Shown here piece by piece: positions 899 through 40,560 of a stretch of DNA of 64,000 nucleotides; position 1 is the stretch's first letter, and each line of letters begins with the position of its first letter. The notes beneath the pieces were generated by a model. That model worked only from the letters and a program-made list of their open reading frames with translations. It had not been told where the DNA came from and ran no database searches. The stretch lies in IMG/VR virus record IMGVR_UViG_3300010885_025649, positions 124,001-188,000 of that record; one strand, given 5' to 3'. The translations under genes and the position numbers were made by a program. Source of the stretch: a virus.

Positions 899-1468
899 TT
901 AACTAGGCCACACCGTACTAATAAGCTCTTCTTCACTAATAGGAAAATAATTATTAACATCTACTCCCACATTAAACATAGGAATATTCTTATAGTATTT
1001 TAATCGCCATGCACTATGCACATGTCCATGGATTAGAATATCCTCTTCTCCTCTGACGGCAGCAAAGTGAGGATACCTCATATCATCATAAGGTACATGT
1101 GTTACAAATGCTCGTTTACCATTAGCTAAAACCAAGGATTTAGACAAGGCGACTTTAGTAAAGCCAATGTCTAAATACTGTTGTACTGTAGCAGTTTTAT
1201 CCTTGAACTTAAAGGCGGGATGACAACTATCATGGTTACCCATATATAATTGTTTATTACCTTTTAGTTTGGGTAATACTGCGGCGGCATATCTAAATTG
1301 TAAGGTGAAATCCCCTACAAAATATACCGTATCATCATCACTAATTACACTGTTGTAATTAGCTATTAAACCCGTTGTCATTTCATCAACATCTCGCCAA
1401 GGTCTAGTCTCATAGGTGATGATGTTCTTGTGACCAAAATGTTGATCACTTGTAAAATAAAGTCCCAT
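899..1468 (-). CDS. Calcineurin-like metallophosphoesterase
   Basis: 189 aa. Metal-binding motifs appear in the family order: DQH (D8, H10), VGD (G52-D53), GNHD (77-80), THVP (123-126) and HGHVH (147-151). This is the single-domain metallophosphatase fold seen in phage and bacterial phosphoesterases. The substrate could be a nucleotide, a phosphoprotein or nucleic acid ends and cannot be told from sequence. It sits just downstream of the small-protein array on the same strand. Confidence 0.88.
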   Translation of the reverse strand: MGLYFTSDQHFGHKNIITYETRPWRDVDEMTTGLIANYNSVISDDDTVYFVGDFTLQFRYAAAVLPKLKGNKQLYMGNHDSCHPAFKFKDKTATVQQYLDIGFTKVALSKSLVLANGKRAFVTHVPYDDMRYPHFAAVRGEEDILIHGHVHSAWRLKYYKNIPMFNVGVDVNNYFPISEEELISTVWPS

Positions 1469-1477
1469 GTTAAATTC

Positions 1478-1633
1478 TCAAATTACTTTCAAGTAGGTTG
1501 TTACCGCGGCCGATTTATAATATACACAATTAAATATAATTACAAATCTATCTGTATATATTACGGTAATATTAAATGTCTCATCATCATTACTAGAATA
1601 AATACCGGGAGGTGGAAAGTTAAAGTATGTCAT
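1478..1633 (-). CDS. Array member 1, 51 aa
   Basis: Starts MTYFNFPPPG. The core motif reads YTDRFVII and the usual DIRL end is missing. Its ATG shares one base with the preceding stop (TAATG). It is the last gene of the array, so it has no family member downstream. Confidence 0.7.
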   Translation of the reverse strand: MTYFNFPPPGIYSSNDDETFNITVIYTDRFVIIFNCVYYKSAAVTTYLKVI

Positions 1634-1845
1634 TATTCCCATCCTCGTTTTACGTATAATTGTATTGCACTATTATGCAAGTAAATATATTTACCCATGT
1701 AAGTATCATACCTATCATGAGGTTTATCTTGCCGGTAATTCCCAACATAATAGTTACCTATATATAATTTAAGATTTCCTGGTGGGGAAACTAATACAAT
1801 ATCAAAATCATCAAAATATTTAGTCTCAAAGAAACAATAAGTCAT
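1633..1845 (-). CDS. Array member 2, 70 aa
   Basis: Starts MTYCFFETKYFDDFDIV. It is one of the longer members, and the core is diverged (YDTYMGKYIYL). It is joined to member 3 by an ATGA overlap and to member 1 by TAATG. Confidence 0.75.
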   Translation of the reverse strand: MTYCFFETKYFDDFDIVLVSPPGNLKLYIGNYYVGNYRQDKPHDRYDTYMGKYIYLHNSAIQLYVKRGWE

Positions 1846-2006
1846 AACAAAAATATATGGTTGTGTAAAAAGATATGAGTAACCGAAAAGCCAACTGTAA
1901 GAAACCCATCTTTAAATACTTGTGTGCCAAAGTTCTCAAATCTAATAGTGAGTTTGTTGATGGTAGTGATATATTGAGGACTTGTGGAGGATTTGAATTT
2001 GAACAC
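1842..2006 (-). CDS. Array member 3, 54 aa, GTG start
   Basis: Reads VFKFKSSTSPQY from a GTG, lacks the MTYF start, and keeps the core motif FKDGFLTV. The stop overlaps the next ATG (ATGA). The missing N-terminal motif suggests a lost or replaced start. Confidence 0.6.
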   Translation of the reverse strand: MFKFKSSTSPQYITTINKLTIRFENFGTQVFKDGFLTVGFSVTHIFLHNHIFLL

Positions 2007-2017
2007 TAGAAAAACCT

Positions 2018-2203
2018 TTACGATTTCATGGGAACAACTTGAGAAATGATAACCTTATACTCTAATGGTTTACGAAAACTATCTTTGCGTATAATAAAAT
2101 AGTCCTTGTATACTATACCTGGTAACCTTGACTCGAAATTTAACCAAACAAACTTAGTAAGTTGTATTCGAGGACTATTATCCTTGCTAATAAAATAAGT
2201 CAT
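2018..2203 (-). CDS. Array member 4, 61 aa
   Basis: Starts MTYFISKDNSPRIQL. The core motif is YKDYFIIR. It is followed by an 11-base gap before member 3, one of the few non-overlapping junctions. Confidence 0.78.
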   Translation of the reverse strand: MTYFISKDNSPRIQLTKFVWLNFESRLPGIVYKDYFIIRKDSFRKPLEYKVIISQVVPMKS

Positions 2204-2376
2204 GATGGCCTAAACACATGTACTATTGCACAATTTTGTAATGTAACAACATCAGATAGACGTATATATCTATCCGAATAAAAACAATAAGCTATTGAAC
2301 TTCTATTAGATAAATTTACCTTAAGGAATTTACCAGGAATATGAACTACCGGTTGTCTAACAACTATATAAGTCAT
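2200..2376 (-). CDS. Array member 5, 58 aa
   Basis: Starts MTYIVVRQPVVHIPGKF. The core motif is YSDRYIRL. ATGA overlaps on both sides. Confidence 0.75.
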   Translation of the reverse strand: MTYIVVRQPVVHIPGKFLKVNLSNRSSIAYCFYSDRYIRLSDVVTLQNCAIVHVFRPS

Positions 2377-2549
2377 AACCGTGTAGTAATAAATATATTT
2401 GTGCCTGCATGAGCATTATTACTAGTAATAAACTTATCTTGATATAATATAACCATGTTTGTATAAGTTTCATGTAATAGATTAACTCTTAACCTTGTAC
2501 CAAGAACGATATTATATGTATCTTTTAATGCTGTTATAAAATGTGTCAT
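2373..2549 (-). CDS. Array member 6, 58 aa
   Basis: Starts MTHFITALKDTYNIV. The core motif is YQDKFITS and it ends in ITTRL. A longer in-frame start at 2567 exists but runs into the upstream member, so the MTHF start is preferred. Confidence 0.77.
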   Translation of the reverse strand: MTHFITALKDTYNIVLGTRLRVNLLHETYTNMVILYQDKFITSNNAHAGTNIFITTRL

Positions 2550-2698
2550 TTTGTACCTGCATGACAAGATCGGCCTACAAGAAACTCATCTAAATATAAA
2601 TTAGTGTAAGGAATACCTTGCCAGTAATCCGCCGCCTCTAAAACATAACTAGAACATTCTGTAAGTTTCATTGAATACTTAATAATAAAATACGTCAT
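2546..2698 (-). CDS. Array member 7, 50 aa
   Basis: Starts MTYFIIKYSMKLTEC. The core is YLDEFLVG and it ends shortly after (HAGTK). Member 6 also carries an NAHAGT segment, so the two neighbours may share a recent exchange. Confidence 0.75.
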   Translation of the reverse strand: MTYFIIKYSMKLTECSSYVLEAADYWQGIPYTNLYLDEFLVGRSCHAGTK

Positions 2699-2850
2699 AT
2701 AAACTTCCAAACTACATGACATCCATAGATACATCCAAAACATATAAACTTATCTAAATAATAATAAGTCTCTGGTATTCCCGGAGTATATATAAAGTAA
2801 ACAATACCAATCTTAATAGTATTACTATAAGAAGTTACCGCATAAGTCAT
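2695..2850 (-). CDS. Array member 8, 51 aa
   Basis: Starts MTYAVTSYSNTIKIG. The core is YLDKFICF. It is the first member downstream of the two unrelated genes at 2860-3816. The stop overlaps the member 7 start. Confidence 0.73.
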   Translation of the reverse strand: MTYAVTSYSNTIKIGIVYFIYTPGIPETYYYLDKFICFGCIYGCHVVWKFI

Positions 2851-2859
2851 AGACAGCCT

Positions 2860-3297
2860 TTAAATCCTGTAGGTTGTGATTGTTGGCTTCGGCTTAGAGT
2901 TATAATCCTTTACAGAACGGAGGATGTGCAAATACTCCGATATTTGCTTAGAAGTTTTAGCTTTAGCCTCAGCTTCAGTTATTCCCACAATTTGTTCAGA
3001 AGAATAATGAAATGTTGACACCCTTTTAGGATTAATCGGAAGAGTTATAGCTTTACGCATACCCCAATTAGGAGCAAGCATAAATCCTCCAACGTATCTA
3101 GAATGTGAACATTCATACCCTTCTGGTATACACAATAAAGGGTGTAACTTCTGACCAGAAATAGCAGGAAGAATAACAATTAATTGCACAGAGTAATTAG
3201 CCCACTGCGGAAAGATCTCAGCGGCTTTAGTTGCAGGCGGAATCAACTCAGCAGCGTGTTCAACAAACTCAATAGAAAGCTCTTCAACAGGGTTCAT
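2860..3297 (-). CDS. Hypothetical protein, 145 aa (within the array)
   Basis: Begins MNPVEELSIEFVEHAAEL, preceded by a strong AAAGGAG ribosome site. It does not share the array's N-terminal or core motifs. The base composition is less AT-rich than the flanking small genes. It includes a Cys/His-bearing stretch (LLCIPEGYECSHSRY) and a helical C-terminus. Together with the pentapeptide gene it looks like a two-gene insertion into the array. Function unknown. Confidence 0.8.
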   Translation of the reverse strand: MNPVEELSIEFVEHAAELIPPATKAAEIFPQWANYSVQLIVILPAISGQKLHPLLCIPEGYECSHSRYVGGFMLAPNWGMRKAITLPINPKRVSTFHYSSEQIVGITEAEAKAKTSKQISEYLHILRSVKDYNSKPKPTITTYRI

Positions 3298-3309
3298 CTT
3301 GGATCTCCT

Positions 3310-3816
3310 TTAAGAAGTAAATCTCACACCGTAAATCATAGCTACCCGATGTAGCTCCTTCAGCGCAGCCTCTTTAGTACACGTATATAATACCTGCAGA
3401 TTAAATTCAGGCAGAGCCTGTTTAATAATCAAACAAGCCATATTATGATTACAGTTATTAAAAGCAAGACTAACTGCCCCACCCAAACAATGTGAAGGCC
3501 CAAACCAACAACACTGATTATACCTACCAGAATTAGTATGATTAATTAATAACTGAATTAATTCTTTAGGATCAATCTGAGGAAGACCTGTAATGTTATC
3601 TAACTTAGCACTAGCAATATAACCACTTTTGAGTATAACATCAGTAAAATCCGCGCCGGTAAAATCAGCACCCCTAAAAGGGAAATTAGTCAAATCTACT
3701 CCGGCTAAGATACAGTGGCTAAAGTCAGCTTTAGTGACCTTAGTACCACCGGAATTAATCCAAGCCCATTGTGCCTCACGCATCTTATCAACTTTAGCTT
3801 GTGTGATCGTTTTCAT
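3310..3816 (-). CDS. Pentapeptide-repeat protein
   Basis: 168 aa. Residues about 28-62 contain consecutive A(D/N)LXX-type pentapeptides such as ADFSHCILAGVDLTNF, then RGADF TGADF TDVIL. These fold into a short right-handed quadrilateral helix in known proteins. The remaining C-terminal part (Cys/His-rich, CCWFGPSHCLGG) is not recognised. Pentapeptide proteins often act as DNA mimics or binding scaffolds (family knowledge), but no partner is visible. The ribosome site AAAGGAA precedes the ATG, and its stop overlaps nothing important except the start region of member 9 (4 bases). Confidence 0.85.
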   Translation of the reverse strand: MKTITQAKVDKMREAQWAWINSGGTKVTKADFSHCILAGVDLTNFPFRGADFTGADFTDVILKSGYIASAKLDNITGLPQIDPKELIQLLINHTNSGRYNQCCWFGPSHCLGGAVSLAFNNCNHNMACLIIKQALPEFNLQVLYTCTKEAALKELHRVAMIYGVRFTS

Positions 3817-4025
3817 TTCAGTTCCTTTGATTGTGGAGTTAAAGTTATATAAAAATCCTCCCCATAATCTTCTAAAACTAGCTTCTCACTTATATTTAAA
3901 AACACATCTATATATATAGGGTTGATTCTAAGTATTGTATGATTATTAGGATGTTTGCTCAAGATATAAAAATAATAGAAACCCTGATCTAGAAACCAAG
4001 TCTTATTAAAGTCAAGATAAGTCAT
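3813..4025 (-). CDS. Array member 9, 70 aa
   Basis: Starts MTYLDFNKTWFLDQGFYY. The core motif is YIDVFLNI followed by an extended acidic tail. It lies immediately upstream of the pentapeptide gene and overlaps it by 4 bases, so the inserted genes use the array's coupling. Confidence 0.75.
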   Translation of the reverse strand: MTYLDFNKTWFLDQGFYYFYILSKHPNNHTILRINPIYIDVFLNISEKLVLEDYGEDFYITLTPQSKELK

Positions 4026-4204
4026 ACTTTATTCCTACACACACTTAGATTCTCTATAACCCTAGCTTTAGGCTCTGTATGCGTCCAATAACTTAAATAC
4101 ATAAAACCATCTGAGAATATTACGGGGTTATGTATGTATTTGTCTAAGTAGAAATCATATAATTGTAAGCCGGGAGTACATCTACCCAGATTAAAGTGAG
4201 TCAT
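4022..4204 (-). CDS. Array member 10, 60 aa
   Basis: Starts MTHFNLGRCTPGLQL. The core is FSDGFMYL. The MTHF start is preferred over an upstream in-frame Met that lies in member 11. ATGA overlap downstream. Confidence 0.76.
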   Translation of the reverse strand: MTHFNLGRCTPGLQLYDFYLDKYIHNPVIFSDGFMYLSYWTHTEPKARVIENLSVCRNKV

Positions 4205-4371
4205 GTTACTTTGATTACTCGTATATACCAATTACTATGAATCCAAGAACCTATATTAACAAAGTTATCTTTAAGTGAATAATTAATTGTTATATGTATA
4301 TTAGGTGGAAGCTCAAAACCTAACCGATAGTCACACAAAAAAACTCGCTGGCCAATCCTAAAAATAGTCAT
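4201..4371 (-). CDS. Array member 11, 56 aa
   Basis: Starts MTIFRIGQRVFLCDY, a variant of MTYF. The core is LKDNFVNI. ATGA overlaps on both sides. Confidence 0.75.
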   Translation of the reverse strand: MTIFRIGQRVFLCDYRLGFELPPNIHITINYSLKDNFVNIGSWIHSNWYIRVIKVT

Positions 4372-4547
4372 AGTAATACCACATCTACATTGTTACTATT
4401 CTTCGTAACTAACCCCTTACTCTCAATAAAGTTATCTTTATACATTACTTTACCCAGTATTATCTTAGGATGTAAATAAAGGTAAAAGTTGGGAATACGT
4501 AATGTGGCATAGTTATTTCGCTTCTTGATTCTAACGAAATGTGTCAT
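4368..4547 (-). CDS. Array member 12, 59 aa
   Basis: Starts MTHFVRIKKRNNYATLRI. The core is YKDNFIES and the end is VDVVLL. It is separated from member 13 by 14 bases. Confidence 0.76.
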   Translation of the reverse strand: MTHFVRIKKRNNYATLRIPNFYLYLHPKIILGKVMYKDNFIESKGLVTKNSNNVDVVLL

Positions 4548-4561
4548 GTTAATTCTTTAAG

Positions 4562-4741
4562 TTAAAGTAAGTCAATGTAAATACCATGAGTAGTATAGTC
4601 TGGATCTAATGGCCGCTCAAACATAACAAAGTTATCTTCATAATTACCACGCGGGCCGCTATTTCTATTATTCAAGAGTATATAAAAAGGACCTGCAGCA
4701 ATATACCGGTTAAATCCAAGATGAGTAACAAAGTGTGTCAT
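4562..4741 (-). CDS. Array member 13, 59 aa
   Basis: Starts MTHFVTHLGFNRYIAAG. The core is YEDNFVMF and the end is IYIDLL, a clear version of the DIRL terminus. One base separates it from member 14. Confidence 0.77.
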   Translation of the reverse strand: MTHFVTHLGFNRYIAAGPFYILLNNRNSGPRGNYEDNFVMFERPLDPDYTTHGIYIDLL

Positions 4742-4742
4742 G

Positions 4743-4937
4743 TTAATTACTTAATCTAATAGTTATATCAGGAATATTATGCGAATAAGTATCTAAACCA
4801 ATCGTAATAAAACTGTCTGTAAAAATAACACCTATTGTCCAATTGGGATTTAATATCACGTCAGTATAAGAATTAAAACGTATATACTGAAATCGAGCCT
4901 TTAGTGGTTTATTCTTAATATAAACTGTATAAGTCAT
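4743..4937 (-). CDS. Array member 14, 64 aa
   Basis: Starts MTYTVYIKNKPLKARFQY. The core is FTDSFITI and the end is DITIRLSN. Its start overlaps the stop of member 15 (ATGA). Confidence 0.78.
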   Translation of the reverse strand: MTYTVYIKNKPLKARFQYIRFNSYTDVILNPNWTIGVIFTDSFITIGLDTYSHNIPDITIRLSN

Positions 4938-5107
4938 GTCATCCCTATAAATATACTGATATCGCCATCTTCATAACTTTTTGTGGTGATATACATAAAA
5001 GGATCTTCATACTCATTCTTTACCCCAACTGTGGAAAACATATGCGCGGCTATACCTTCACTAAGTTTTATTTCTCTAATCAAATCTTTAGGTTTAAAGT
5101 AAGTCAT
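4934..5107 (-). CDS. Array member 15, 57 aa
   Basis: Starts MTYFKPKDLIREIKL. The core is YEDPFMYI and the end is DISIFIG. It is coupled to member 14 by ATGA. Confidence 0.76.
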   Translation of the reverse strand: MTYFKPKDLIREIKLSEGIAAHMFSTVGVKNEYEDPFMYITTKSYEDGDISIFIGMT

Positions 5108-5108
5108 G

Positions 5109-5276
5109 TTAATCCATTAACTTAATATCTACTTGCTGCCTTGATTTAGCTCCAACACTAATAAAGTTATCTTCAAAGATATTACGCCGCCATGAAACAC
5201 AATTTAAATAAATATATTGGTGTTTATGTAACTGTACAAATCTACTTTGGTAATGTTCTAGAATAAAATGTGTCAT
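5109..5276 (-). CDS. Array member 16, 55 aa
   Basis: Starts MTHFILEHYQSRFVQL. The core is FEDNFISV and the end is VDIKLMD. One base separates its stop from the member 15 start. Confidence 0.77.
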   Translation of the reverse strand: MTHFILEHYQSRFVQLHKHQYIYLNCVSWRRNIFEDNFISVGAKSRQQVDIKLMD

Positions 5277-5446
5277 GGTAATCTTCCTACAAATACTGTA
5301 GTAAGTCGCCTAAACGTTGTCGCAAGTAACTTATCTTTATAAAATACTATAATAGCTGATGGATAAATTTGTTTAGTTCGCCTATAGAAATACATGTTGT
5401 TTATTATTCTCGCATCAGAATTATTAAGCGGGAAAATGTATGTCAT
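5273..5446 (-). CDS. Array member 17, 57 aa
   Basis: Starts MTYIFPLNNSDARII. The core is YKDKLLAT, with Leu in place of the usual Phe. The C-terminus is basic (RRLTTVFVGRLP). Confidence 0.75.
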   Translation of the reverse strand: MTYIFPLNNSDARIINNMYFYRRTKQIYPSAIIVFYKDKLLATTFRRLTTVFVGRLP

Positions 5447-5619
5447 ATTGTAGCTATCTCTAAAATCTTATTACCATGTACTCTAATAAACCTATCTAAA
5501 TACAATTGCTTAAATCCTATAATTACACCCCCTACATGACAAGTCATACCATATAGCTTCTGTCCGCATTTTAGATGCGTGGAATAACTAGGATGATTAT
5601 TAAGAAGAAAGTGTGTCAT
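5443..5619 (-). CDS. Array member 18, 58 aa
   Basis: Starts MTHFLLNNHPSYSTHL. The core is YLDRFIRV and the end is ILEIATI. The MTHF start is chosen over an upstream in-frame Met inside member 19. Confidence 0.76.
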   Translation of the reverse strand: MTHFLLNNHPSYSTHLKCGQKLYGMTCHVGGVIIGFKQLYLDRFIRVHGNKILEIATI

Positions 5620-5780
5620 TTTAAACACCGCGGTTTCCGCCCAATAAATAATAAACCATTAATAGTTACTTTAAGTAAACTATCTTCATAGGTTATAGGG
5701 TAATCACTCTTATTAATTCGATGGAAGAACTTTACATTGTTTATTACTTGTGTCTGAAGCCTAAGAATGAAGTATGTCAT
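5616..5780 (-). CDS. Array member 19, 54 aa
   Basis: Starts MTYFILRLQTQVINN. The core is YEDSLLKV. The ATG is joined to the member 20 stop as TAATG, and its own stop overlaps member 18. Confidence 0.75.
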   Translation of the reverse strand: MTYFILRLQTQVINNVKFFHRINKSDYPITYEDSLLKVTINGLLFIGRKPRCLK

Positions 5781-5971
5781 TAATCAAAACCCTGTTTAGA
5801 TACTATAGATAATCTTCCTTCTGATTTATACGTGTATAACTCCAATCTAACTAAGTCATCTTGATAATAGAGTAAGTCTAATTGAGGAGTCCTATCTACA
5901 TACAACCTGATAGCTATTCTTGGTATGTTAATTAAGGCTATCCAATTGTTTTCATCCATGAAATGTGTCAT
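5780..5971 (-). CDS. Array member 20, 63 aa
   Basis: Starts MTHFMDENNWIALINI. The core is YQDDLVRL. It has an extended polar tail and an ATGA overlap with member 21. Confidence 0.77.
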   Translation of the reverse strand: MTHFMDENNWIALINIPRIAIRLYVDRTPQLDLLYYQDDLVRLELYTYKSEGRLSIVSKQGFD

Positions 5972-6171
5972 AACGGCTTATTATTATTTAAGACTTCAAC
6001 AACCTGATGGCTATTTACGTAAATAAAGTTATCCGAATAGTCAATACAAGTATTATCTAAAGCGCGAGAACCACCAAAATAAAGTTTGCGATTCACCCGT
6101 TGTATGTAGAAAGGTAATTTTAAATAAGATGGATGCCCCGAAGTAAAATTACAAAAAAAGAGATATGTCAC
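5968..6171 (-). CDS. Array member 21, 67 aa, GTG start
   Basis: Reads MTYLFFCNFTSGHPSYL from GTG, giving a GTGA overlap with member 22. The core is YSDNFIYV. Confidence 0.76.
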   Translation of the reverse strand: MTYLFFCNFTSGHPSYLKLPFYIQRVNRKLYFGGSRALDNTCIDYSDNFIYVNSHQVVEVLNNNKPL

Positions 6172-6305
6172 GATAGCTTTCCTATAAATACCGCACGATG
6201 TGACCTAATAGTTACTCTAAGTAAAAGATCTCTATAAGCTGTTGGAGTATTTGACTCTCCATTTCTACAAGCGCCATCATATTTTATTTTTATCAGAGAG
6301 ATGGG
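6168..6305 (-). pseudogene. Array member 22, 5'-truncated by a hairpin element
   Basis: The frame keeps the C-terminal two thirds of a member (core YRDLLLRV, end AVFIGKLS). The MTYF start has been replaced by the hairpin sequence at 6311-6341, and an in-frame TGA lies directly upstream. No ATG, GTG or TTG start is available ahead of the core, so it is probably not translated in full. Confidence 0.65.
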
Positions 6306-6310
6306 TCAAA

Positions 6311-6341
6311 AACCCCATCCTTTAGGGCGGGGGAGTGTCAA
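6311..6341 (+). mobile_element. Solo hairpin resembling an omega-RNA 3' end (copy 2)
   Basis: Reads AACCCCATCC-TTTA-GGGCGGGGG-AGTGTCAA: a stem of CCCC/GGGG type with a TTTA loop, then the TGTCAA tail. It lies exactly at the junction between array members 22 and 23. Member 22 has lost its start here and member 23 reads into the hairpin for its stop. The structure matches the right-end hairpin of IS200/IS605-type elements without any transposase gene. Confidence 0.5.
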
Positions 6342-6489
6342 TCTCTCTTATGTCTATAGCAACCTTATTCCATTCAGTCACTGTTATAAAGTTATCCTCA
6401 AGAAGCGGGTAAATCTTAATCCAAGTAGGACTATTAAAATGCACCGTTATTAACTTACATGAGCATAAAAAGAAATTAAAATATGTCAC
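6322..6489 (-). CDS. Array member 23, 55 aa, GTG start, 3' end altered
   Basis: Reads MTYFNFFLCSCKLITV from GTG. The core is LEDNFITV and the end is IDIREI, after which four to five residues and the stop (TPPP-TAA) come from the hairpin element. The C-terminal half is nearly identical in DNA to member 24, indicating a recent duplication. Confidence 0.72.
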   Translation of the reverse strand: MTYFNFFLCSCKLITVHFNSPTWIKIYPLLEDNFITVTEWNKVAIDIREIDTPPP

Positions 6490-6641
6490 TTTTTAATCTC
6501 TCTTATGTCTATACAAATTTCATTCCAATAAGTTACCTTTACAAAGTTATCTTGGAAAAATGTATTATGCCTCCATCTTGAATTATTAAAGTATATTGTT
6601 ACTAAGTTAAATGCCTTGTTAAACGAATTGAAATGTGTCAT
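6486..6641 (-). CDS. Array member 24, 51 aa
   Basis: Starts MTHFNSFNKAFNLVT. The core is FQDNFVKV and the end is IDIREIKK. It is the closest relative of its neighbour, member 23. The start overlaps the member 25 stop. Confidence 0.77.
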   Translation of the reverse strand: MTHFNSFNKAFNLVTIYFNNSRWRHNTFFQDNFVKVTYWNEICIDIREIKK

Positions 6642-6808
6642 ATAGTTACAATATCCAAAGTCAAAGTATGAGGATCATATTGAGTTGTTCTAATATAACT
6701 ATCCTCAAATAATACTAAATCTGAGTTGGCATTTACACTATTTAAATATAAATAGTGCTGCAACTTTATTCCATGTCTATCATTTATACCAACAATGAAA
6801 TGTGTCAT
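6638..6808 (-). CDS. Array member 25, 56 aa
   Basis: Starts MTHFIVGINDRHGIK. The core is FEDSYIRT and the end is LTLDIVTI. ATGA overlaps on both sides. Confidence 0.76.
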   Translation of the reverse strand: MTHFIVGINDRHGIKLQHYLYLNSVNANSDLVLFEDSYIRTTQYDPHTLTLDIVTI

Positions 6809-6972
6809 GATCTTGCACGTAGTTGAAGCCAGTTATTATTATACAAACGGGGATTTACCCAAACAGTAAACTCAATAAACCTATCCTCATATCCTAAATA
6901 TTCACCAGGATCCCAAGGTATCGAGGTAAATTTGTATGGGAAGCCTAAATAACTATTTGCAAGGTATGTCAT
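6805..6972 (-). CDS. Array member 26, 55 aa
   Basis: Starts MTYLANSYLGFPYKF. The core is YEDRFIEF and the end is LQLRARS. It is coupled to member 25 by ATGA. Confidence 0.76.
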   Translation of the reverse strand: MTYLANSYLGFPYKFTSIPWDPGEYLGYEDRFIEFTVWVNPRLYNNNWLQLRARS

Positions 6973-7065
6973 TCTCTTGTTACCCTGAAGTCTAAAACAT
7001 AGTTATGCTTAACACAATCAAATTCAGTAGCCCTCAAATAATAATCCGGTATAAAAATATGTCAT
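6969..7065 (-). pseudogene. Array member 27, internally deleted and frameshifted
   Basis: The start MTYFYTGLLFEGY runs into TGA after 13 codons. In the +1 frame the same bases read DYYLRATEFDCVKHN and end LDFRVTRE, which is the expected core and terminus. About 30 codons between start and core are missing. Without a frameshift no complete product can be made. Confidence 0.65.
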
Positions 7066-7259
7066 GATGCTACCAATCTTATATCAATAGCATACTTTGC
7101 TATCACACCTACATTATAATCATGTACTTTAATAAAAGAATCTTTATAAAGTAAAACATCCTTTTTATTTCGGAAACCATTCTGAAAGTAAATAGATCCT
7201 TTAGAAAAAGATATATAGTATTCATTGTAATTTAAACTTAAACCAAGAAAGTACGTCAT
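7062..7259 (-). CDS. Array member 28, 65 aa
   Basis: Starts MTYFLGLSLNYNEYYIS. The core is YKDSFIKV and the end is IDIRLVAS, close to the family consensus. Confidence 0.8.
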   Translation of the reverse strand: MTYFLGLSLNYNEYYISFSKGSIYFQNGFRNKKDVLLYKDSFIKVHDYNVGVIAKYAIDIRLVAS

Positions 7260-7483
7260 GCTACTAATTTAAAATCTAATATATCATTACGCCAACCTAA
7301 TTCAGGATTAGAATCTTCTACCGTTATAAAAGCATCAGCATATACTAAACGGTATTTACCATCAGCTTCTCCACTGGCTATATCCTCATCTTCAAACTGA
7401 AAATATACTACACATTTACCTAAATCACACCAATGCATATCAGAAATATTAAATGTACGAATTGAAGGGTAAAAGTTTGTCAT
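7256..7483 (-). CDS. Array member 29, 75 aa
   Basis: Starts MTNFYPSIRTFNISD. It is the longest member, with an acidic insertion (FEDEDIASGEAD) before the core YADAFITV. It ends ILDFKLVA. Confidence 0.8.
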   Translation of the reverse strand: MTNFYPSIRTFNISDMHWCDLGKCVVYFQFEDEDIASGEADGKYRLVYADAFITVEDSNPELGWRNDILDFKLVA

Positions 7484-7686
7484 GACTGCAACCTAATATC
7501 AAGTGTTCGACTTCCCCCCCAACTATTTATACAATTTAGATGATTAAAAATATCAAGCCTCAGACAAGCATCTATATACACTGCAACATCACCAGAAGAT
7601 CGCTGCGGACTTTGGAAATATACCAGAAGCGGTCCCAAAATACATGCACTGTCATATTTTAATTTAGAACCATAGAAATGCGTCAT
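7480..7686 (-). CDS. Array member 30, 68 aa
   Basis: Starts MTHFYGSKLKYDSAC. The core is YIDACLRL and the end is TLDIRLQS. The MTHF start is preferred over an upstream Met at 7713 inside member 31. Confidence 0.78.
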   Translation of the reverse strand: MTHFYGSKLKYDSACILGPLLVYFQSPQRSSGDVAVYIDACLRLDIFNHLNCINSWGGSRTLDIRLQS

Positions 7687-7856
7687 GATAAAACCCTTAA
7701 ATCCATAGACCAATAATCTCCGGTAAGATCAAAGTAAGTAAGCTTAATAAATCTATCTTGGAAAGATACCTTATCTTCATACTCAATACCAGGATTGTGG
7801 AAGAATATAGCACCTATAGGCAAATTCACATAAAAGTCAGCGCCGCAATATGTCAT
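7683..7856 (-). CDS. Array member 31, 57 aa
   Basis: Starts MTYCGADFYVNLPIG. The core is FQDRFIKL and the end is SMDLRVLS. Coupled on both sides by ATGA. Confidence 0.77.
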   Translation of the reverse strand: MTYCGADFYVNLPIGAIFFHNPGIEYEDKVSFQDRFIKLTYFDLTGDYWSMDLRVLS

Positions 7857-8044
7857 CGGTTTGCTCGAATATCTATAATATCAGTAAACCTAATCACTCT
7901 TGGATCATATTCCTTAGTAGTTATATAAATATCCTCATACATTAAAGTATCCCGAGGGGTAGCGGCCGCACTATCAAAGCATACTCCGAGGAAATTAAAA
8001 CTAATATCAAAAACAGGAGTGGTAATAGTAATAAAGTAGGTCAT
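7853..8044 (-). CDS. Array member 32, 63 aa
   Basis: Starts MTYFITITTPVFDISF. The core is YEDIYITT and the end is IIDIRANR. Typical length and coupling. Confidence 0.8.
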   Translation of the reverse strand: MTYFITITTPVFDISFNFLGVCFDSAAATPRDTLMYEDIYITTKEYDPRVIRFTDIIDIRANR

Positions 8045-8244
8045 TCGACTAACCTGATGTCCAGATAATAGGGTGCATGAGTATGAGAATAACTAGTAAC
8101 TTCTAAATAGTTATCTAACTGTATTAATAAATCCTGTTCTGATCTACCTAAACATTGCAAGAATATAAGAATGTCAGAACTCAAATCGGGATCACCCCTA
8201 TCTACATCAGACTTATCATCACCAATATTAAAGAAATATGTCAT
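8041..8244 (-). CDS. Array member 33, 67 aa
   Basis: Starts MTYFFNIGDDKSDVDRG and is unusually acidic near the N-terminus. The core is QLDNYLEV and the end is LDIRLVE. Confidence 0.8.
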   Translation of the reverse strand: MTYFFNIGDDKSDVDRGDPDLSSDILIFLQCLGRSEQDLLIQLDNYLEVTSYSHTHAPYYLDIRLVE

Positions 8245-8444
8245 CTCGTAAACCTTATGTCTAGCACAGTAGGATTTGATAGATCAAAGTCATCTAGATA
8301 TTCTATGCAAGTAATAAAGTTATCTTGATGACGTAACTGATCCTGATTACCTCTCTGTGAGTCCTGAAAACAATAAGTCTTACATCGACTAATGTCGATT
8401 TCTATATAAAAAGTAGGGGTAACTGTGTTAATAAAATAAGTCAC
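8241..8444 (-). CDS. Array member 34, 67 aa, GTG start
   Basis: Reads MTYFINTVTPTFYIEI from GTG 8444. The core is HQDNFITC and the end is VLDIRFTR. A longer frame starting at 8486 is possible, but the family start motif places initiation at the GTG. Confidence 0.76.
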   Translation of the reverse strand: MTYFINTVTPTFYIEIDISRCKTYCFQDSQRGNQDQLRHQDNFITCIEYLDDFDLSNPTVLDIRFTR

Positions 8445-8499
8445 TTTTAAATATCCGTACTTCAGAGAGCCAAGCCGAGTCAACACAACAATAAGTCAT
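8428..8499 (-). pseudogene. Array member 35, remnant (23 codons)
   Basis: The start MTYCCVDSAWLSE passes directly into VRIFKSDLFY and stops at 8428 inside member 34. The middle and core are gone. It looks like a deletion remnant, although a 23-aa peptide could still be made. Confidence 0.5.
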
Positions 8500-8575
8500 T
8501 CTCTTGTCCGTAAAATATTTATTGTACCAAAACAAATAGCATTATGCCTTTTGAGCGTGTAGAAAAATATGTCAT
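8496..8575 (-). pseudogene. Array member 36, deleted and frameshifted
   Basis: MTYFSTRSKGIMLFVLVQ is followed by a stop. A shifted frame gives a short terminus, NILRTRE, resembling the end of member 27 (VTRE). The core motif is missing. It is adjacent to the other remnant (member 35), so this is a local deletion hot spot. Confidence 0.55.
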
Positions 8576-8751
8576 GTGCTTATATAAATAGTGACTTGGG
8601 AATAATCCTCTAATGCCCGAATAGTTACTAACAAATCGTGATATCTTGGGGTAATATATGGATTTCCTGTAGTAGATGTAAATAAACATATTCTAAAATC
8701 ACTACCCAACTTCCATTGAGTTACACCTATTCTATTAATAAAATATGTCAC
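8572..8751 (-). CDS. Array member 37, 59 aa, GTG start
   Basis: Reads MTYFINRIGVTQWKLG from GTG. The core is YHDLLVTI. It shares GTGA coupling with member 38. Confidence 0.76.
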   Translation of the reverse strand: MTYFINRIGVTQWKLGSDFRICLFTSTTGNPYITPRYHDLLVTIRALEDYSQVTIYIST

Positions 8752-8930
8752 AGTATCCTTAAAATAATAGAATTACTAACGCTATCATAACGATAACTAA
8801 TTAGTAGCGCATCCCTAAATAGTTTTTCGTGTTCACCTTCAAGCCAAATTCTGGATAAATGAATATCCAAATTCCAACTATATACAGGTAAAGTATATCC
8901 CCAACGATTCTTACCTACAAAATATGTCAT
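8748..8930 (-). CDS. Array member 38, 60 aa
   Basis: Starts MTYFVGKNRWGYTLPVY. The core is FRDALLIS and the end is IILRIL. Confidence 0.78.
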   Translation of the reverse strand: MTYFVGKNRWGYTLPVYSWNLDIHLSRIWLEGEHEKLFRDALLISYRYDSVSNSIILRIL

Positions 8931-9112
8931 GGTAAATACACATAAATACGATATTCAGCAACTATTAAGGTTTTAATGCACATAAAACTGTCTATATAAC
9001 CACAATCATCAAGTGTTCCAGCACGCAAATCTATAAGACAAATTACGTGGCGCGGCAGTGTAATATCCTCTTCGAATTTCTTGCTGTAAAACTTCTTAAG
9101 TAAATAAGTCAT
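8927..9112 (-). CDS. Array member 39, 61 aa
   Basis: Starts MTYLLKKFYSKKFEED. The core is YIDSFMCI and the end is YRIYVYLP. Its upstream neighbour is the hairpin-disrupted member 40. Confidence 0.78.
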   Translation of the reverse strand: MTYLLKKFYSKKFEEDITLPRHVICLIDLRAGTLDDCGYIDSFMCIKTLIVAEYRIYVYLP

Positions 9113-9118
9113 TCACCT

Positions 9119-9241
9119 TTACCAGATCGAGCGTAAAGCCCATGCCTTCAGGCATGGGGAGTTGTCAAGATCTAATGAACTACAAGGTGTGAATATAGAA
9201 CCTTTAAATATAATCATATCAATGTTGCGGAAATATGTCAT
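9119..9241 (-). pseudogene. Array member 40, truncated by a hairpin element
   Basis: MTYFRNIDMIIFKGSIF is a normal start, but after about 23 residues the frame enters the hairpin at 9135-9168 and ends at TAA 9119 (40 codons). The core and DIRL end are absent, so the C-terminal half was lost or displaced at the insertion. Confidence 0.6.
9135..9168 (+). mobile_element. Solo hairpin resembling an omega-RNA 3' end (copy 3)
   Basis: AAAGCCCATGCC-TTCA-GGCATGGGGAG-TTGTCAA forms an 8-bp stem (CCCATGCC/GGCATGGG) with the AGTTGTCAA tail typical of the right-end hairpin of TnpB-type elements. The sequence GATCT follows directly and a GATC lies just before. It lies inside array member 40. No associated tnpB is in the window. 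Confidence 0.55.
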
Positions 9242-9375
9242 TCCTTTTTAAACCAAGAGTAATTTAAATGGCCGTCAAACATAATCTCAAATTTTATATA
9301 ATAATCTATATAGAATACTTTGGGAGAACACCATGATATTTTATATATTAAATACCGCTTATAGAAATGTGTCAT
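9238..9375 (-). CDS. Array member 41, 45 aa
   Basis: Starts MTHFYKRYLIYKISW. It is a short version with core YIDYYIKF and an ending rich in aromatic residues. ATGA overlap with member 40. Confidence 0.7.
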   Translation of the reverse strand: MTHFYKRYLIYKISWCSPKVFYIDYYIKFEIMFDGHLNYSWFKKE

Positions 9376-9399
9376 GTTTACTTTATTCTAATGCAAACT

Positions 9400-9542
9400 T
9401 TATATTATATGCGGATTAAATATTCTAACGGTGTAAGCTAATGTAATCTTCAAGAGTTTATCTTGGTAAATTATGTCGCGGCGATGCAAAATTGGATGCG
9501 CGCTTAGTAAATAATGGATTAAACTATATCGTCATATGTCAT
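9400..9542 (-). pseudogene. Array member 42, frameshifted first gene of the array
   Basis: The start MTYDDIV ends at TAA after 7 codons. The -1 frame carries the expected body, including core YQDKLLKI and an end VRIFNPHII, but has no start codon. It is the gene closest to the presumed promoter. Confidence 0.6.
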
Positions 9543-9762
9543 CCTAGCCTCTGAATTTGTGCATAAAAAGGGCCTATTTTCGTGCAGAAAAAAGCCACCT
9601 GCATTTGCAAGTCGCTGGATGTAAATTATTAATTGCAGGGTTTTTATGCAAAAGGTTTATGTACCTATTTTTGAGGCCTATTTTTCACTTGCCTAAATTT
9701 GCCCTGTTATATCCCTTTGTGATTGCCAAATGTTATGTTACCTGCTGTCTTTGTATGTAATC

Positions 9763-13342: not shown

Positions 13343-16300
13343 CTAAATCTTCTGTTCTAACTTGAGCAGCTTAGTCTCGTATACCCCCTCAATACAATCC
13401 CTATAAGTCCCAAATCGGGTCTTTAAGAACTTTATAAGGATTGAATCAGGGCTACACACAGCTAAGTACTCATCCAACCCCTGCTCCGGTCGGGTAGCTT
13501 CACCCCGTGTCATGCGCCGAATAAGCGCAGGTAACTTGGTGATCTCTTCGTCCGACCCGTTATCCTGCAGGATTTCTAGCGCCATGGGATTGGGTTCCGC
13601 TTTATTATCAGCAGCTTGCCAAACCATGGTGATAGCTCTACCTAATAAAACCCCAGCCGTTTCGAGTTCTGTGATTTCTATCCCAGCCTCAAGAATGGCT
13701 TCGGTTAAAGTGCTAGCTAACTCATCCGCATTTAACTTGCCCGCACCTAACCGCTCAAAGAGAACATTAGCTCTCTCCTTCTTGGCTGCAAAGCATGCTA
13801 ACCATAGATGCTCATACAGTAAGAAGGCTTTGGCGGCAACCTCTAGTAAGCCCCGGTGATTTATCGATAGGGCTAAAATCAAGAGATCGTGTGCAGCATT
13901 GTAAATGCGACCAATCCCGCGAGTATTAAAGTTTGCTTGGTTGGCTAACAAACTCTTATACCCATCATTGGTAATTACCAACGGCCCTGCATACAGGTAC
14001 TTCTTGCGAAGATTGATAGGCTTTAACCAACCAATCAAGTTCTTCACAGAAGCATAACTCAGGTACGTAATGCTCTGCATACCAAAGGGACTTTGGTGTA
14101 ACAGATCTTTAGTACGTTCATAGATTAACCGGAAGTTCTCCTGGGGATCAGCAGTTAACCGAAGCTTGTCAGTTAATAAGACGGGTATCAAGTTGCCTTG
14201 ATCTCCATCAAAGTCTGCTGCACTAACAATGGCTTCTAAAGGTGAGACATAAATCTCACTGATGCCCACCATTGTTGTGGTTTTGATCCGGAGTACTGTA
14301 GAGAAGATCAGCGGATACCGCCAAGCAATTACTGGTTGTCCTTCCTTGAACCCGGCCTTTGCAGCAAATGTAGGATGTACATAGGCCCAACCGGAAGGAA
14401 TCATGTCATGCCCACGGAAGACCCCGCTGCGGCCACTCTTAGCAGTATTGCAGACTGTCTTGAGAGTGTTGGGCTGAGCACACATATTCTCAATAGCCCA
14501 TTTAACTTCGCTAATTGCCTCCAAGATTAACGTCATTTCATCAGGGGTATATTGATCAAACCCCTTGGTAAGTAACCCGAATAAGTTGCACAAGCGAATG
14601 CTTAGTACATCTACGGGTAAAACTACCGCACCATTGCTGTCATACAAGGCGCATAAATGGAGTAACACAAAGGGGTCCAGGTAAATATAACCCTGAGGTA
14701 CTCCAACATAACACCCGTCCGGATAAAGCCGACTTAACTCCTCAATCAGATGACCCCAACGGTTAACCTTGCTAACAATCTGAGAGAGACAAGGTAATTC
14801 TTTAGGAACGCCATTCTCCATGACATCCCCATTGAATTTACTATTGGCTTCTCTCATGCGGTGTAAGCGGGATAACCCATTAACCTGACTGAGAGTAGTC
14901 CGAGTATACAATGCGTTAATCCCTGCGTGTTGTAACGCCAATGCATGTGAGGGAGTTAACCTGGAGTTATTCGTCCGGTTATCTACCAGAGGAATCTCTG
15001 GGGCCATAACCATAGAACACTCCAGACATTCAATGGATTGATACACCCGATTATCTACAACCTTATGGCCGGCTGCAGTGTAAAGCTTACCCATCTCCGG
15101 AATTACCTCAAAGGAGATGTCTAAGGGTTTAATGGTGTCATTCATCCATTTCAGATAGAACTCTTGATCTTCCGGTTTTAGAGTTCCATCCATGTTAAAG
15201 ACAGTAACCTTCTTCCAAGGACAAGCAGCTAGGGTTAAAAGAGAACCCTTCATGCATTCCATGGTGATAATGATCTGAGCTTGCGGATATGCATCCCAGA
15301 TATCCTGGAATTGGTACCGATGATCCTTACCCAATGGAAGGTCTGGAGTTAAAGAGGCCTTGAGGTTAGGCCCTCTAACTTTCATGTTCTTGATAGTCTT
15401 AGCCAGATAACCGCGGATAGTAACATCGCGGAACGACTCTGGACTAAGACTATTGGGTAGCGAAGAGTACTCCGTTACGTAGAAAGTGTGATCGTACGGA
15501 TTCGCATAACCAGCTACAATCTTCTGATTGGGATAATAACCCTTGATGGGTATACTATCCGGCGCTAACTTAGCTGGAACTGTGAAGCGTTCAACCACAG
15601 GATCCTGAGCTGTTATCCCCTTAAACCGTTCAGGATGATAATAGCTCTGACCCGAACCATTCGCCGCTACGGTAGCAAACACCACATGTTCAGCTTTAAA
15701 GCCTTCACAAACAGGAAGACTATAAGCCATCTCAAGGATATCTTTGGTAAAGATACCTAAAGCATTTGCTCCCTGATTTACAACCTGATACTTAAACTGC
15801 GGGTGCGTGGCAAAGACATAATATCCCTCGGGGAATTTCCCAATAGGATAATGCAGAAGGCTTGCCTTGGGATTCATTACGGGACATGCTGGGCCAACCA
15901 TCAGAAGTGAGCGGTTGCTAGCTTTCTCAGGTACAGAACCAGCACCAGGAATTGACACGTAGTTATACTGGGTGCTGGAAAGCTGAGACATTTGTGCCGC
16001 AATAATATCTGGACTACACTCTTGAAGATCCAAGTAAACAGGACTTTCAACAGCATAATCATCGCGGAATCCCATATGAGAAAAGCAAACCCGATAATCC
16101 CGAGCTAATTGACCAAGACCACCCACAACTCCATAAGTTACCACTTTAGGAGCAAAGAGGTGACCATTACCAATTGGATTCTTATGAACCAAATCAGCTT
16201 CACCTTGGTCATCAACTTCTACCTCAAGCACCTCCTCCTTGAATCCCCGCAGTACTGCTGCGAGAAATTTACTTCCGCTCAACGCGACATACCAAAGAAA

Positions 16301-16858
16301 TAACGCCTTCATACTGTTGAGGTTATAAACGTAGCCATTGATAACCCCGACTGGACAAAGGCGATCTAATGCCTTTGTGATTGATACGGGTTTACCGCTG
16401 TCACCTAAATACGTGACCTCTTTATCTATAGAACAGGTAAACAGATTTGCTCGCGAACTAACCTGTTTGAATCCTCGACCTCTATCTGTATAAAGATAAT
16501 TGCCAAGGATCTCAAAGTGTTCCGCAAAGATCTTGCTAAGGCTTCCATAGTTGTTAGCCTTCCAAGAGATAACCGTATAACCTTTACCTTGCAGATCCTT
16601 TTCTGCTAGAGCATACGCATTAAGGCCTTTAAACCCCAACTTCTCAGAAGTAAATTGGGGCAGCTTTCTAGCAAGCTTGCCTATTTTAGGATTCGGGGCA
16701 TACTGCGGGAATAACGCGTGGATGACTTTAACCGGTAAATGTGAGTCAAGTGTACAATACCTGACATCTTCACGACTGATAAACGCGGCACTTTCACTGT
16801 TAAGGTAAAAGTACAACGGCGGGGAACTGGTGATTGTAGCTCTAACGATCTCAGCCAT
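13343..16858 (-). CDS. RNA polymerase beta'-like protein with DFDGDQ catalytic motif, 1171 aa
   Basis: Residues 882-887 read DFDGDQ inside SAADFDGDQGNLIPV, the Mg-binding signature of the second double-psi beta-barrel of multisubunit and single-chain (YonO/crAss-type) RNA polymerases. Upstream, GQPVIAWRYPLIFSTVLRI matches the R-x-P strand that precedes the motif in that fold. The rest is too diverged to align by eye; I did not find a convincing first barrel. It probably transcribes a class of phage genes. Start at ATG 16858 with AAGGAGAG upstream. It lies in a cluster with 16883 and 17757. A DNA-directed polymerase is favoured, but an RNA-dependent enzyme of the same fold cannot be excluded. 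Confidence 0.75.
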   Translation of the reverse strand: MAEIVRATITSSPPLYFYLNSESAAFISREDVRYCTLDSHLPVKVIHALFPQYAPNPKIGKLARKLPQFTSEKLGFKGLNAYALAEKDLQGKGYTVISWKANNYGSLSKIFAEHFEILGNYLYTDRGRGFKQVSSRANLFTCSIDKEVTYLGDSGKPVSITKALDRLCPVGVINGYVYNLNSMKALFLWYVALSGSKFLAAVLRGFKEEVLEVEVDDQGEADLVHKNPIGNGHLFAPKVVTYGVVGGLGQLARDYRVCFSHMGFRDDYAVESPVYLDLQECSPDIIAAQMSQLSSTQYNYVSIPGAGSVPEKASNRSLLMVGPACPVMNPKASLLHYPIGKFPEGYYVFATHPQFKYQVVNQGANALGIFTKDILEMAYSLPVCEGFKAEHVVFATVAANGSGQSYYHPERFKGITAQDPVVERFTVPAKLAPDSIPIKGYYPNQKIVAGYANPYDHTFYVTEYSSLPNSLSPESFRDVTIRGYLAKTIKNMKVRGPNLKASLTPDLPLGKDHRYQFQDIWDAYPQAQIIITMECMKGSLLTLAACPWKKVTVFNMDGTLKPEDQEFYLKWMNDTIKPLDISFEVIPEMGKLYTAAGHKVVDNRVYQSIECLECSMVMAPEIPLVDNRTNNSRLTPSHALALQHAGINALYTRTTLSQVNGLSRLHRMREANSKFNGDVMENGVPKELPCLSQIVSKVNRWGHLIEELSRLYPDGCYVGVPQGYIYLDPFVLLHLCALYDSNGAVVLPVDVLSIRLCNLFGLLTKGFDQYTPDEMTLILEAISEVKWAIENMCAQPNTLKTVCNTAKSGRSGVFRGHDMIPSGWAYVHPTFAAKAGFKEGQPVIAWRYPLIFSTVLRIKTTTMVGISEIYVSPLEAIVSAADFDGDQGNLIPVLLTDKLRLTADPQENFRLIYERTKDLLHQSPFGMQSITYLSYASVKNLIGWLKPINLRKKYLYAGPLVITNDGYKSLLANQANFNTRGIGRIYNAAHDLLILALSINHRGLLEVAAKAFLLYEHLWLACFAAKKERANVLFERLGAGKLNADELASTLTEAILEAGIEITELETAGVLLGRAITMVWQAADNKAEPNPMALEILQDNGSDEEITKLPALIRRMTRGEATRPEQGLDEYLAVCSPDSILIKFLKTRFGTYRDCIEGVYETKLLKLEQKI

Positions 16859-31044: not shown

Positions 31045-31341
31045 TTATTTGGCAACAAATTCCCTGCAACCTCTATCTACACTGTGCGGATTAACCGCAC
31101 ACGACAACGCGGAGCTAAAGCTGTAATACTTACAGCCATAACAAGGCCTTAAAGCCTTTACAATCTCCCAGTCTTCCTCCGAACAGTAGCCTGAGGCTAG
31201 AAAGAAACTAACCTCCTGCTCCGCATACTCAGCTTGACGCTCTTCCTCTTGAGCACAGAGAAGGGCAAGGGCATCAGCCATAATCTCCCCTTGAGATTGA
31301 TCTTTGATTCCCTGTGCTTCAGCGTGTGTGTAGTAACCCAT
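31045..31341 (-). CDS. Hypothetical protein with C-terminal Cys motif, 98 aa
   Basis: Begins MGYYTHAEAQGIKDQSQ. The last 35 residues contain CYGCKYY...CAVNP...GCREF, a four-Cys pattern shared with the genes at 32447 and 35099. The pattern (CxxCxY, CxVNP, CRD/E) resembles a small zinc-binding tail that I associate with cyanobacterial proteins of unknown function. GGAGATG precedes the ATG. Confidence 0.75.
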   Translation of the reverse strand: MGYYTHAEAQGIKDQSQGEIMADALALLCAQEEERQAEYAEQEVSFFLASGYCSEEDWEIVKALRPCYGCKYYSFSSALSCAVNPHSVDRGCREFVAK

Positions 31342-32446: not shown

Positions 32447-32869
32447 TTAAACAGTGTAATCACGGCACAAAGTGCCAAACCCTAGGGGGTTTACAGTACA
32501 CGGAAGCCGCCACTCCCCGGTGGCGTATTTACACGCCTCACAGGGATTAGGTTCCTGTTCCGCACACCAACGGTTGTAAGCTTCTACCGCATCTGGCTCA
32601 AGCTGTTCATCTTGAGCAAGGTGGTAGGCCTCCCGGCGCTCTTGCTCCGTCAGCTCCCGCGGGTCTAACCATGCGTCATAAGCGGGAGAGTTCTCCCAAA
32701 GACACATAGCGATTTCTTCCCGAATCGCCCGTTGGCGATCAGTGAGCAGACGAGTTGGAACTCCGACCCAAGGATCTTGCAGCACAGACTGCTTAGCAGC
32801 CCAGCGCTCAAAATCCCAGTGGTTTTGGTTGACCAAAACGATCTTGGTAGCCTGAGTAACTTTAAACAT
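32447..32869 (-). CDS. Hypothetical protein with C-terminal Cys motif, 140 aa
   Basis: Start at MFKVTQATKIVLVNQN (AAAGGAG upstream; MFKV starts recur at 33620 and 35672). The C-terminus NPCEACKYATGEW followed by LPCTVNPLGFGTLCRDY is the four-Cys tail shared with 31045 and 35099. The middle is helical and charged. Confidence 0.75.
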   Translation of the reverse strand: MFKVTQATKIVLVNQNHWDFERWAAKQSVLQDPWVGVPTRLLTDRQRAIREEIAMCLWENSPAYDAWLDPRELTEQERREAYHLAQDEQLEPDAVEAYNRWCAEQEPNPCEACKYATGEWRLPCTVNPLGFGTLCRDYTV

Positions 32870-32930
32870 TTGCGCTCCTTTAATAGTGGAGGACAAATAA
32901 AGAGTCGATAATACTTATCCTAGAAAAGAA

Positions 32931-35098: not shown

Positions 35099-35554
35099 TT
35101 AAACTGTGTAGTCACGACACCCCTGCCCAAAGGCCAGGGGATTTACGCCACAAGGGAGGAGAGCCTCCCCTGTGGCGTATACACAGCCCTTGCAAAGGTT
35201 TTCCGACTCCGGATATGCCGGTGGCGGACTATATAATTGGTATGCCGGGTGAAGGGCAATATTGCCCTCAAATACCGGTGGCAGATCTTGCCACCGGTCC
35301 TCCCACACCCATACCGTTATGTGACATGCCCAGAAGGGCAGTAACGGTATGGCACCGTCTGCATCCTGCACAGGCAGGATGACCATATAATTATTAAATT
35401 GCGGATCCTGATAGTGGATCCGAACGCGGGGAGTTTCCCTCGCCTCAATCTTAGCCGTGCTAAGATTAAGGTTGGCTTGGGCTTTCGCCCGTTTTGCTGC
35501 ATACGCAGCGTATCCGGGAAACGTAGCCAATGTAGCCAGGTTGGTACGTGCCAT
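35099..35554 (-). CDS. Hypothetical protein with C-terminal Cys motif, 151 aa
   Basis: Start at MARTNLATLATFPGYAAY (GGAGAGACAC upstream). The C-terminus NLCKGCVYATGEALLPCGVN continues to CRDYTV, the same tail as in 31045 and 32447. The middle has VRIHYQDPQFNNYMVIL, strand-rich. Not recognised beyond the tail. Confidence 0.75.
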   Translation of the reverse strand: MARTNLATLATFPGYAAYAAKRAKAQANLNLSTAKIEARETPRVRIHYQDPQFNNYMVILPVQDADGAIPLLPFWACHITVWVWEDRWQDLPPVFEGNIALHPAYQLYSPPPAYPESENLCKGCVYATGEALLPCGVNPLAFGQGCRDYTV

Positions 35555-35629
35555 GTGTCTCTCCAATAAGCCGCCTTTAAAAGAGGGCAGCTCAAATAAA
35601 GAGTCGATAATACTTATCCTAGAAAAGAA

Positions 35630-40337: not shown

Positions 40338-40560
40338 TTGAACTCCTTAATAGTGGAGGACAAATAAAGAGTCGAGGCACAGAGGCTCCCAGTGTCAAGG
40401 GTATGAGCTAAAAAATCTAGACGAAAACACATATATGCCGGGGGGGTATAGCAAGTACATATATGGCCTATTCAGAAAATTTCTAATTTTTTGGTGGGAA
40501 GTCGGAATTTCCCGATTCGAATCTGATATGGTTAGAAAGTATACACCGGAGAGTTGCCTT

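Follow-up and report, generated by a model that had tools for sequence, protein, structure and literature searches.

A tandem array of about forty diverged mini-genes in a large tailed phage and the predicted beta-sheet family that it encodes

Phage genomes are short of space and seldom retain a gene in many copies. The locus described here raises the question of what a tailed phage retains when about forty small genes follow one another head to tail within 8 kb, and of how so many short frames are translated. The array (1478-9542, minus strand, thus reading right to left) lies in a window of 64,000 nucleotides, the whole stretch of DNA analysed, which corresponds to bases 124001-188000 of the 212,497-base IMG/VR virus record IMGVR_UViG_3300010885_025649. 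Coordinates refer to this window unless given as those of the record.

The virus and the array

Among the genes of the record are those for a major head protein, a portal, rIIA, ribonucleotide reductase, RNA ligase and nicotinamide phosphoribosyltransferase. Capsid and portal comparisons place it nearest, among named viruses, to Microcystis and Microcoleus phages around Ma-LMM01 (26-27% and 27-28% identity, respectively), and the virus is therefore likely a freshwater cyanophage. A second contig, IMGVR_UViG_3300009154_002711, is nearly identical, with two differences in 10,195 bases, none of them inside the array, and no differences over 2065-9760; the two samples may not be independent. Because the array is the same in both contigs, random assembly errors are an unlikely source of the damaged copies described below.

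Several other features of the record were observed. Adjacent paralogous genes also occur at record positions 61310-62440, 110814-111612, 118746-119158 and 191431-193480, and tandem duplication is therefore common in this phage. A block at about 11000-40300 with many unknown genes has a GC content of mostly 40-51%, against 31-39% on either side, and looks like DNA of different origin. Another small paralogous set is encoded on the minus strand at 31045-31341, 32447-32896 and 35099-35566; its products have a common Cys-rich end, C..C...NPxxxGxxCR(D/E)(Y/F), and two of them were linked by all-versus-all BLAST. At 13343-16858 and 27357-30164 (minus strand) lie genes for two large proteins that match nothing in Pfam or PHROGs and carry DFDGD motifs (AADFDGDQG and QGDFDGDCEG), which resemble the RNA polymerase beta-prime catalytic motif. 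The 27357-30164 product has a weak PDB match to the RNA polymerase largest subunit (E=0.04), and the pair may possibly represent a very divergent phage RNA polymerase. A PAS-domain protein with a LOV-like NCRFLQG motif (40435-41304, plus strand) is perhaps a blue-light sensor, and the nicotinamide phosphoribosyltransferase (record 121437-122870; phrog_448, E=1e-155) suggests NAD salvage. NAD salvage is tied to counter-defence in some phages.

The array consists of 36 open frames of 45-75 codons and five or six damaged ones. Its products begin with MT(Y/H)F or a near variant, share a Y/F-x-D-x-F/Y/L-I/L/V core and in many cases end in DIR(L/V) or similar. The first-pass annotation had placed 42 tandem family genes here; its coordinates, count and motifs hold, with damaged copies at five sites, whilst two of the genes lying within the array (2860-3297 and 3310-3816) proved not to be members. 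All members lie on the minus strand and, unless stated otherwise, each open frame was assigned by profile. The array begins with a damaged member at 9403-9542 (start MTYDDIV at 9542; core IYQDKLLKI in another frame, E=1e-4 in a gap-frame search), the first open frame, a short one of 45 aa (9238-9375), and a truncated member at 9119-9241. Members at 8927-9112 (61 aa), 8748-8930 (60 aa) and 8572-8751 (59 aa) precede one or two damaged members at 8445-8578, with starts MTYFSTRSK at 8575 and MTYCCVDSA at 8499. Open frames then follow at 8241-8444 (67 aa), 8041-8244 (67 aa), 7853-8044 (63 aa), 7683-7856 (57 aa), 7480-7686 (68 aa), 7256-7483 (75 aa) and 7062-7259 (65 aa), up to a damaged member at 6972-7065 whose start and end pieces are in separate frames. 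Beyond it are 6805-6972 (55 aa), 6638-6808 (56 aa), 6486-6641 (51 aa) and its closest paralogue 6322-6489 (55 aa), then a weak damaged member at about 6171-6305, seen as the core AYRDLLLRVT only. Next come 5968-6171 (67 aa), 5780-5971 (63 aa), 5616-5780 (54 aa), 5443-5619 (58 aa), 5273-5446 (57 aa; ranked first in the core test only), 5109-5276 (55 aa), 4934-5107 (57 aa), 4743-4937 (64 aa), 4562-4741 (59 aa), 4368-4547 (59 aa), 4201-4371 (56 aa), 4022-4204 (60 aa) and a divergent member at 3813-4025 (70 aa; assigned by start, core motif and position). These are followed by the embedded non-family genes, a pentapeptide-repeat protein at 3310-3816, which is ATGA-coupled, and a 145-aa protein of no known identity at 2860-3297 (both minus strand). 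The array resumes with 2695-2850 (51 aa), 2546-2698 (50 aa), 2373-2549 (58 aa), 2200-2376 (58 aa), 2018-2203 (61 aa), 1842-2006 (54 aa; GTG start, without MTY) and a divergent member at 1633-1845 (70 aa; start, partial core and position), and closes with a 51-aa member at 1478-1633 that has a strong Shine-Dalgarno (SD) pairing (-8.3 kcal/mol). Nine nucleotides downstream lies a metallophosphoesterase gene (899-1468, minus strand; PHROGs match, phrog_547).

The damaged copies lie between open frames and consist of start segments lacking a core or of cores shifted into a different frame; they show birth-and-death of the array genes. The first-pass annotation had recognised damaged copies; what it had not seen is that the 9119-9241 copy is cut by an apparent transposon end. 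This copy runs into a palindrome of the IS200/IS605-end type, which forms its second half, and the right-end remnant (9130-9165, plus strand) reads as the palindrome CCCATGCCTTCAGGCATGGG and then GAGTTGTCAAG. Three TnpB (OrfB_IS605) genes lie in the same genome (record 93511-94701, 115395-116657 and 193580-194806). No plasmid was found to match the IS605-like end, so the identification rests on the form of the end and on these TnpB genes.

One protein family under constraint

In order to assess whether the frames belong to one family or to several independent ones, profiles were built with each member left out in turn and searched against 4811 background ORFs. Of the 36 held-out members, 33 ranked first; with the first six residues removed, 19 of 36 did, whilst random ORFs handled identically ranked first in none of 36. 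The full profile missed three frames (5273, 3813 and 1633), of which 5273 was regained by the core and the other two are members by position, start and motif. Together with the structure models below, these results bear out the earlier proposal of one diversified family of small beta-rich proteins. Divergence is high, with a mean column identity of 18% and members roughly 20-30% identical to one another; a single recent pair is visible at the DNA level (about 81% over 57 nt). Standard annotation would show unrelated orphans, since all-versus-all BLAST linked only two member pairs.

The conserved first residues had been suspected of reflecting a shared start context rather than function, which the codon usage does not support. 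Their codons vary synonymously (TAT/TAC for Tyr, CAT/CAC for His, TTT/TTC for Phe and ACA/ACT/ACG for Thr), which argues that the start is selected as protein, and the members whose start lies outside an overlap (9238, 8927, 6805, 4934, 4562, 4368 and 2695) mostly retain the start residues. The same codon pattern largely refutes the idea that the repeat is a nucleic-acid signal, such as a start/stop context, recombination site or leader, with the peptides incidental. Conservation is indeed strongest at the start codon and overlap, as that idea would have it, but the core is conserved as amino acids once the start is removed and no Rfam match was found, making it highly improbable. A recoded genetic code is not needed to read the frames.

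In the four closest pairs pN (0.32-0.47) was below pS (0.51-0.82) in every case, with dN/dS of about 0.28-0.54 where calculable, and the third codon position of the array frames is T-rich; both indicate that the frames are protein-coding, and the closest pairs, together with the synonymous variation in the start codons, point to purifying selection on the protein. No nonsynonymous excess was seen between these pairs, in which synonymous sites are near saturation. These data also bear on a mostly neutral accordion, in which repeated duplication of an ancestral gene left a few copies that matter among decaying passengers. The damaged copies, the transposon-end scar, the truncated frames and the high divergence would all suit such a history. 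However, neutral copies should lose their frames well before reaching 20-30% identity, whereas 36 frames are still open, pN remains below pS and the start and core motif are kept in nearly all copies, and we consider this explanation unlikely.

Single-chain AlphaFold2 models on the family alignment gave five beta strands for the 7062-7259 member (pLDDT 81) and five strands in the same order for the distant 4368-4547 member (pLDDT 68). In these predictions the Y-x-D-x-F core forms the turn between strands 3 and 4, and the N terminus and this hairpin are kept across members. All 212 of the inserted residues mapped on the first model fall outside strands, so that length variation lies in the loops, and the family is predicted to be a five-strand scaffold with variable loops. 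Foldseek returned no PDB or BFVD fold match with E<=0.001; scattered 27-column matches to Hfq (E 5-9) were not significant.

The net charge of the members spans -9.7 to +6.3, suggesting that they have no one common surface. A range of this order (-10 to +6), with varied loop lengths, is not expected if all members share one task, for example sequestering one host molecule, with their variation serving only to block recombination between repeats. Such a dosage effect would account for the common scaffold and start and for a DNA divergence that holds recombination low and leaves just the one recent pair, but synonymous change by itself would be enough to avoid recombination. We regard dosage as distinctly improbable.

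Gene junctions and translation

Stop-start overlaps join most members, as the first-pass annotation had it: 27 of 36 junctions, counted with the truncated 9119-9241 frame included, have a spacing of -4 (25, as ATGA or GTGA) or -1 (two), the others being five gaps of 1-14 nt and four long breaks. Of 124 pairs of same-strand neighbours formed by the larger ORFs of the phage, only 3 have a -4 overlap. Three of the long breaks hold damaged copies and one holds the two embedded genes. Coupled paralogues form unbroken runs of 6 to 9. The mean SD pairing of the members was -2.9 kcal/mol, weaker than the -4.2 of 126 other genes (MWU p=0.003) and stronger than the -1.4 at random positions; the embedded genes have strong SDs of their own (-5.8 for 3310-3816 and -8.8 for 2860-3297). 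The 25 ATGA-type overlaps, combined with SDs weaker than those of the larger genes, suggest that translation is probably relayed by termination-reinitiation. The members nonetheless retain an SD signal somewhat above the random level, so that routes other than coupling may contribute, and the longer breaks would interrupt the relay and split the array into blocks. Consensus promoter matches were no commoner than in shuffles. A polyprotein made by -1 frameshifting is not favoured, the junction sequences having no common slippery site.

In experiments with E. coli and Haloferax, 13 of 14 overlapping gene pairs showed strict coupling (PMC6728339), and termination-reinitiation requires very short distances (PMC10666635). 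These systems share the -4 overlap with the array but were studied as gene pairs, in contrast to the runs of coupled paralogues seen here.

Coupling could also set stoichiometry if the members co-assemble into one large hetero-oligomer, such as a shell, filament or scaffold. Small beta proteins often oligomerise, and the retained N terminus and hairpin would fit such an assembly, as would the enrichment of overlapping genes for subunits of heteromeric complexes (PMC10666635). Against this, a complex of forty different subunits would be extraordinary, the members differ widely in charge and loops, five or six of them are broken with the rest retained, and the array lies on the strand opposite to the head genes found in the window. 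We therefore think co-assembly rather improbable. Of the roles raised earlier for the family, inhibitors or decoys that act on variable host targets are plausible, and structural adaptors are less likely.

Relatives, precedents and a possible role

Searches with 35 members against Pfam, PHROGs, NCBIfam and PADLOC gave no family that was hit by two or more of them (best E=0.002), and no known inhibitor or anti-defence protein appeared among the sequence or structure matches of any member. None of the libraries searched contained the protein family. Pattern scans, checked by profile, returned the sister contig and chance matches only in IMG/VR and, among the matches listed, only chance matches in GTDB. 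A search of 386 genomes from the cyanobacterial phylum to which a Gastranaerophilales genome belongs yielded four matches, each weak and single, two of which contained internal stops, and tblastn of one member against named phages found nothing credible. These searches may miss very diverged families. A profile search of 44 capsid-related IMG/VR records and four named cyanophages found no member, and no comparable array of paralogues emerged from a chain scan of Ma-LMM01 and three large relatives. The Ma-LMM01-like cyanophages are the nearest named relatives by capsid and portal, but the four that were searched have no array that could be found, suggesting that it is not essential to this phage group. 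Partial literature coverage, using crude terms, yielded no described equivalent.

Viral multigene families are a known kind. The multigene families of African swine fever virus and the gene accordions of poxviruses are tandem expansions with gain and loss of copies and roles in host interaction. They resemble the array in this respect but involve unrelated proteins and separately expressed genes of eukaryotic viruses, whereas the present family is a phage run of about 40 overlapping mini-genes. Amongst phages, T4 amplifies the counter-defence gene tifA in tandem (PMC9391042), and SegB drives tandem amplification, as for T6 tRNA-Tyr (PMC13096335). These are likewise tandem copies of small phage genes, and counter-defence genes can be among the loci amplified. 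Just beyond the present array lies a gene for an HNH endonuclease (123-614). Their copies, however, are recent and lab-selected, in contrast to about 40 copies at roughly 20-30% identity. A recent segmental amplification of a counter-defence gene was rejected here, there being no near-identical copies and only the two BLAST-linked pairs.

The reading that we tentatively favour, at somewhat less than an even chance, is a lineage-specific family of diversified small binders with which a large tailed phage would take over its host or counter defences. About 40 copies of a beta-sheet scaffold of 50-75 residues, with loops differing in length and sequence among copies, would have arisen as genes duplicated in tandem, diverged and decayed. 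One transcript would probably carry all copies, reinitiation at the ATGA overlaps would mainly pass translation from gene to gene, and each member would most likely bind a different host or competitor protein, making the array a standing repertoire in which selection keeps useful binders. The absence of a nonsynonymous excess in the closest pairs is a point against binders, as strong arms-race selection might give one. The more specific form of this proposal, a heritable polycistronic library of loop-diversified mini-binders against host defences, translated by relayed reinitiation, is doubtful.

About 40 diverged and still constrained mini-genes in 8 kb would represent an unusually large expansion for a tailed phage within the reach of our searches. 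Pairwise comparison all but misses the family, and other arrays of this kind may therefore be hidden among orphan genes that lack annotation. The array lends itself naturally to testing over what distance translation can be relayed by termination-reinitiation, and directly to testing whether phages maintain diversified binder libraries.
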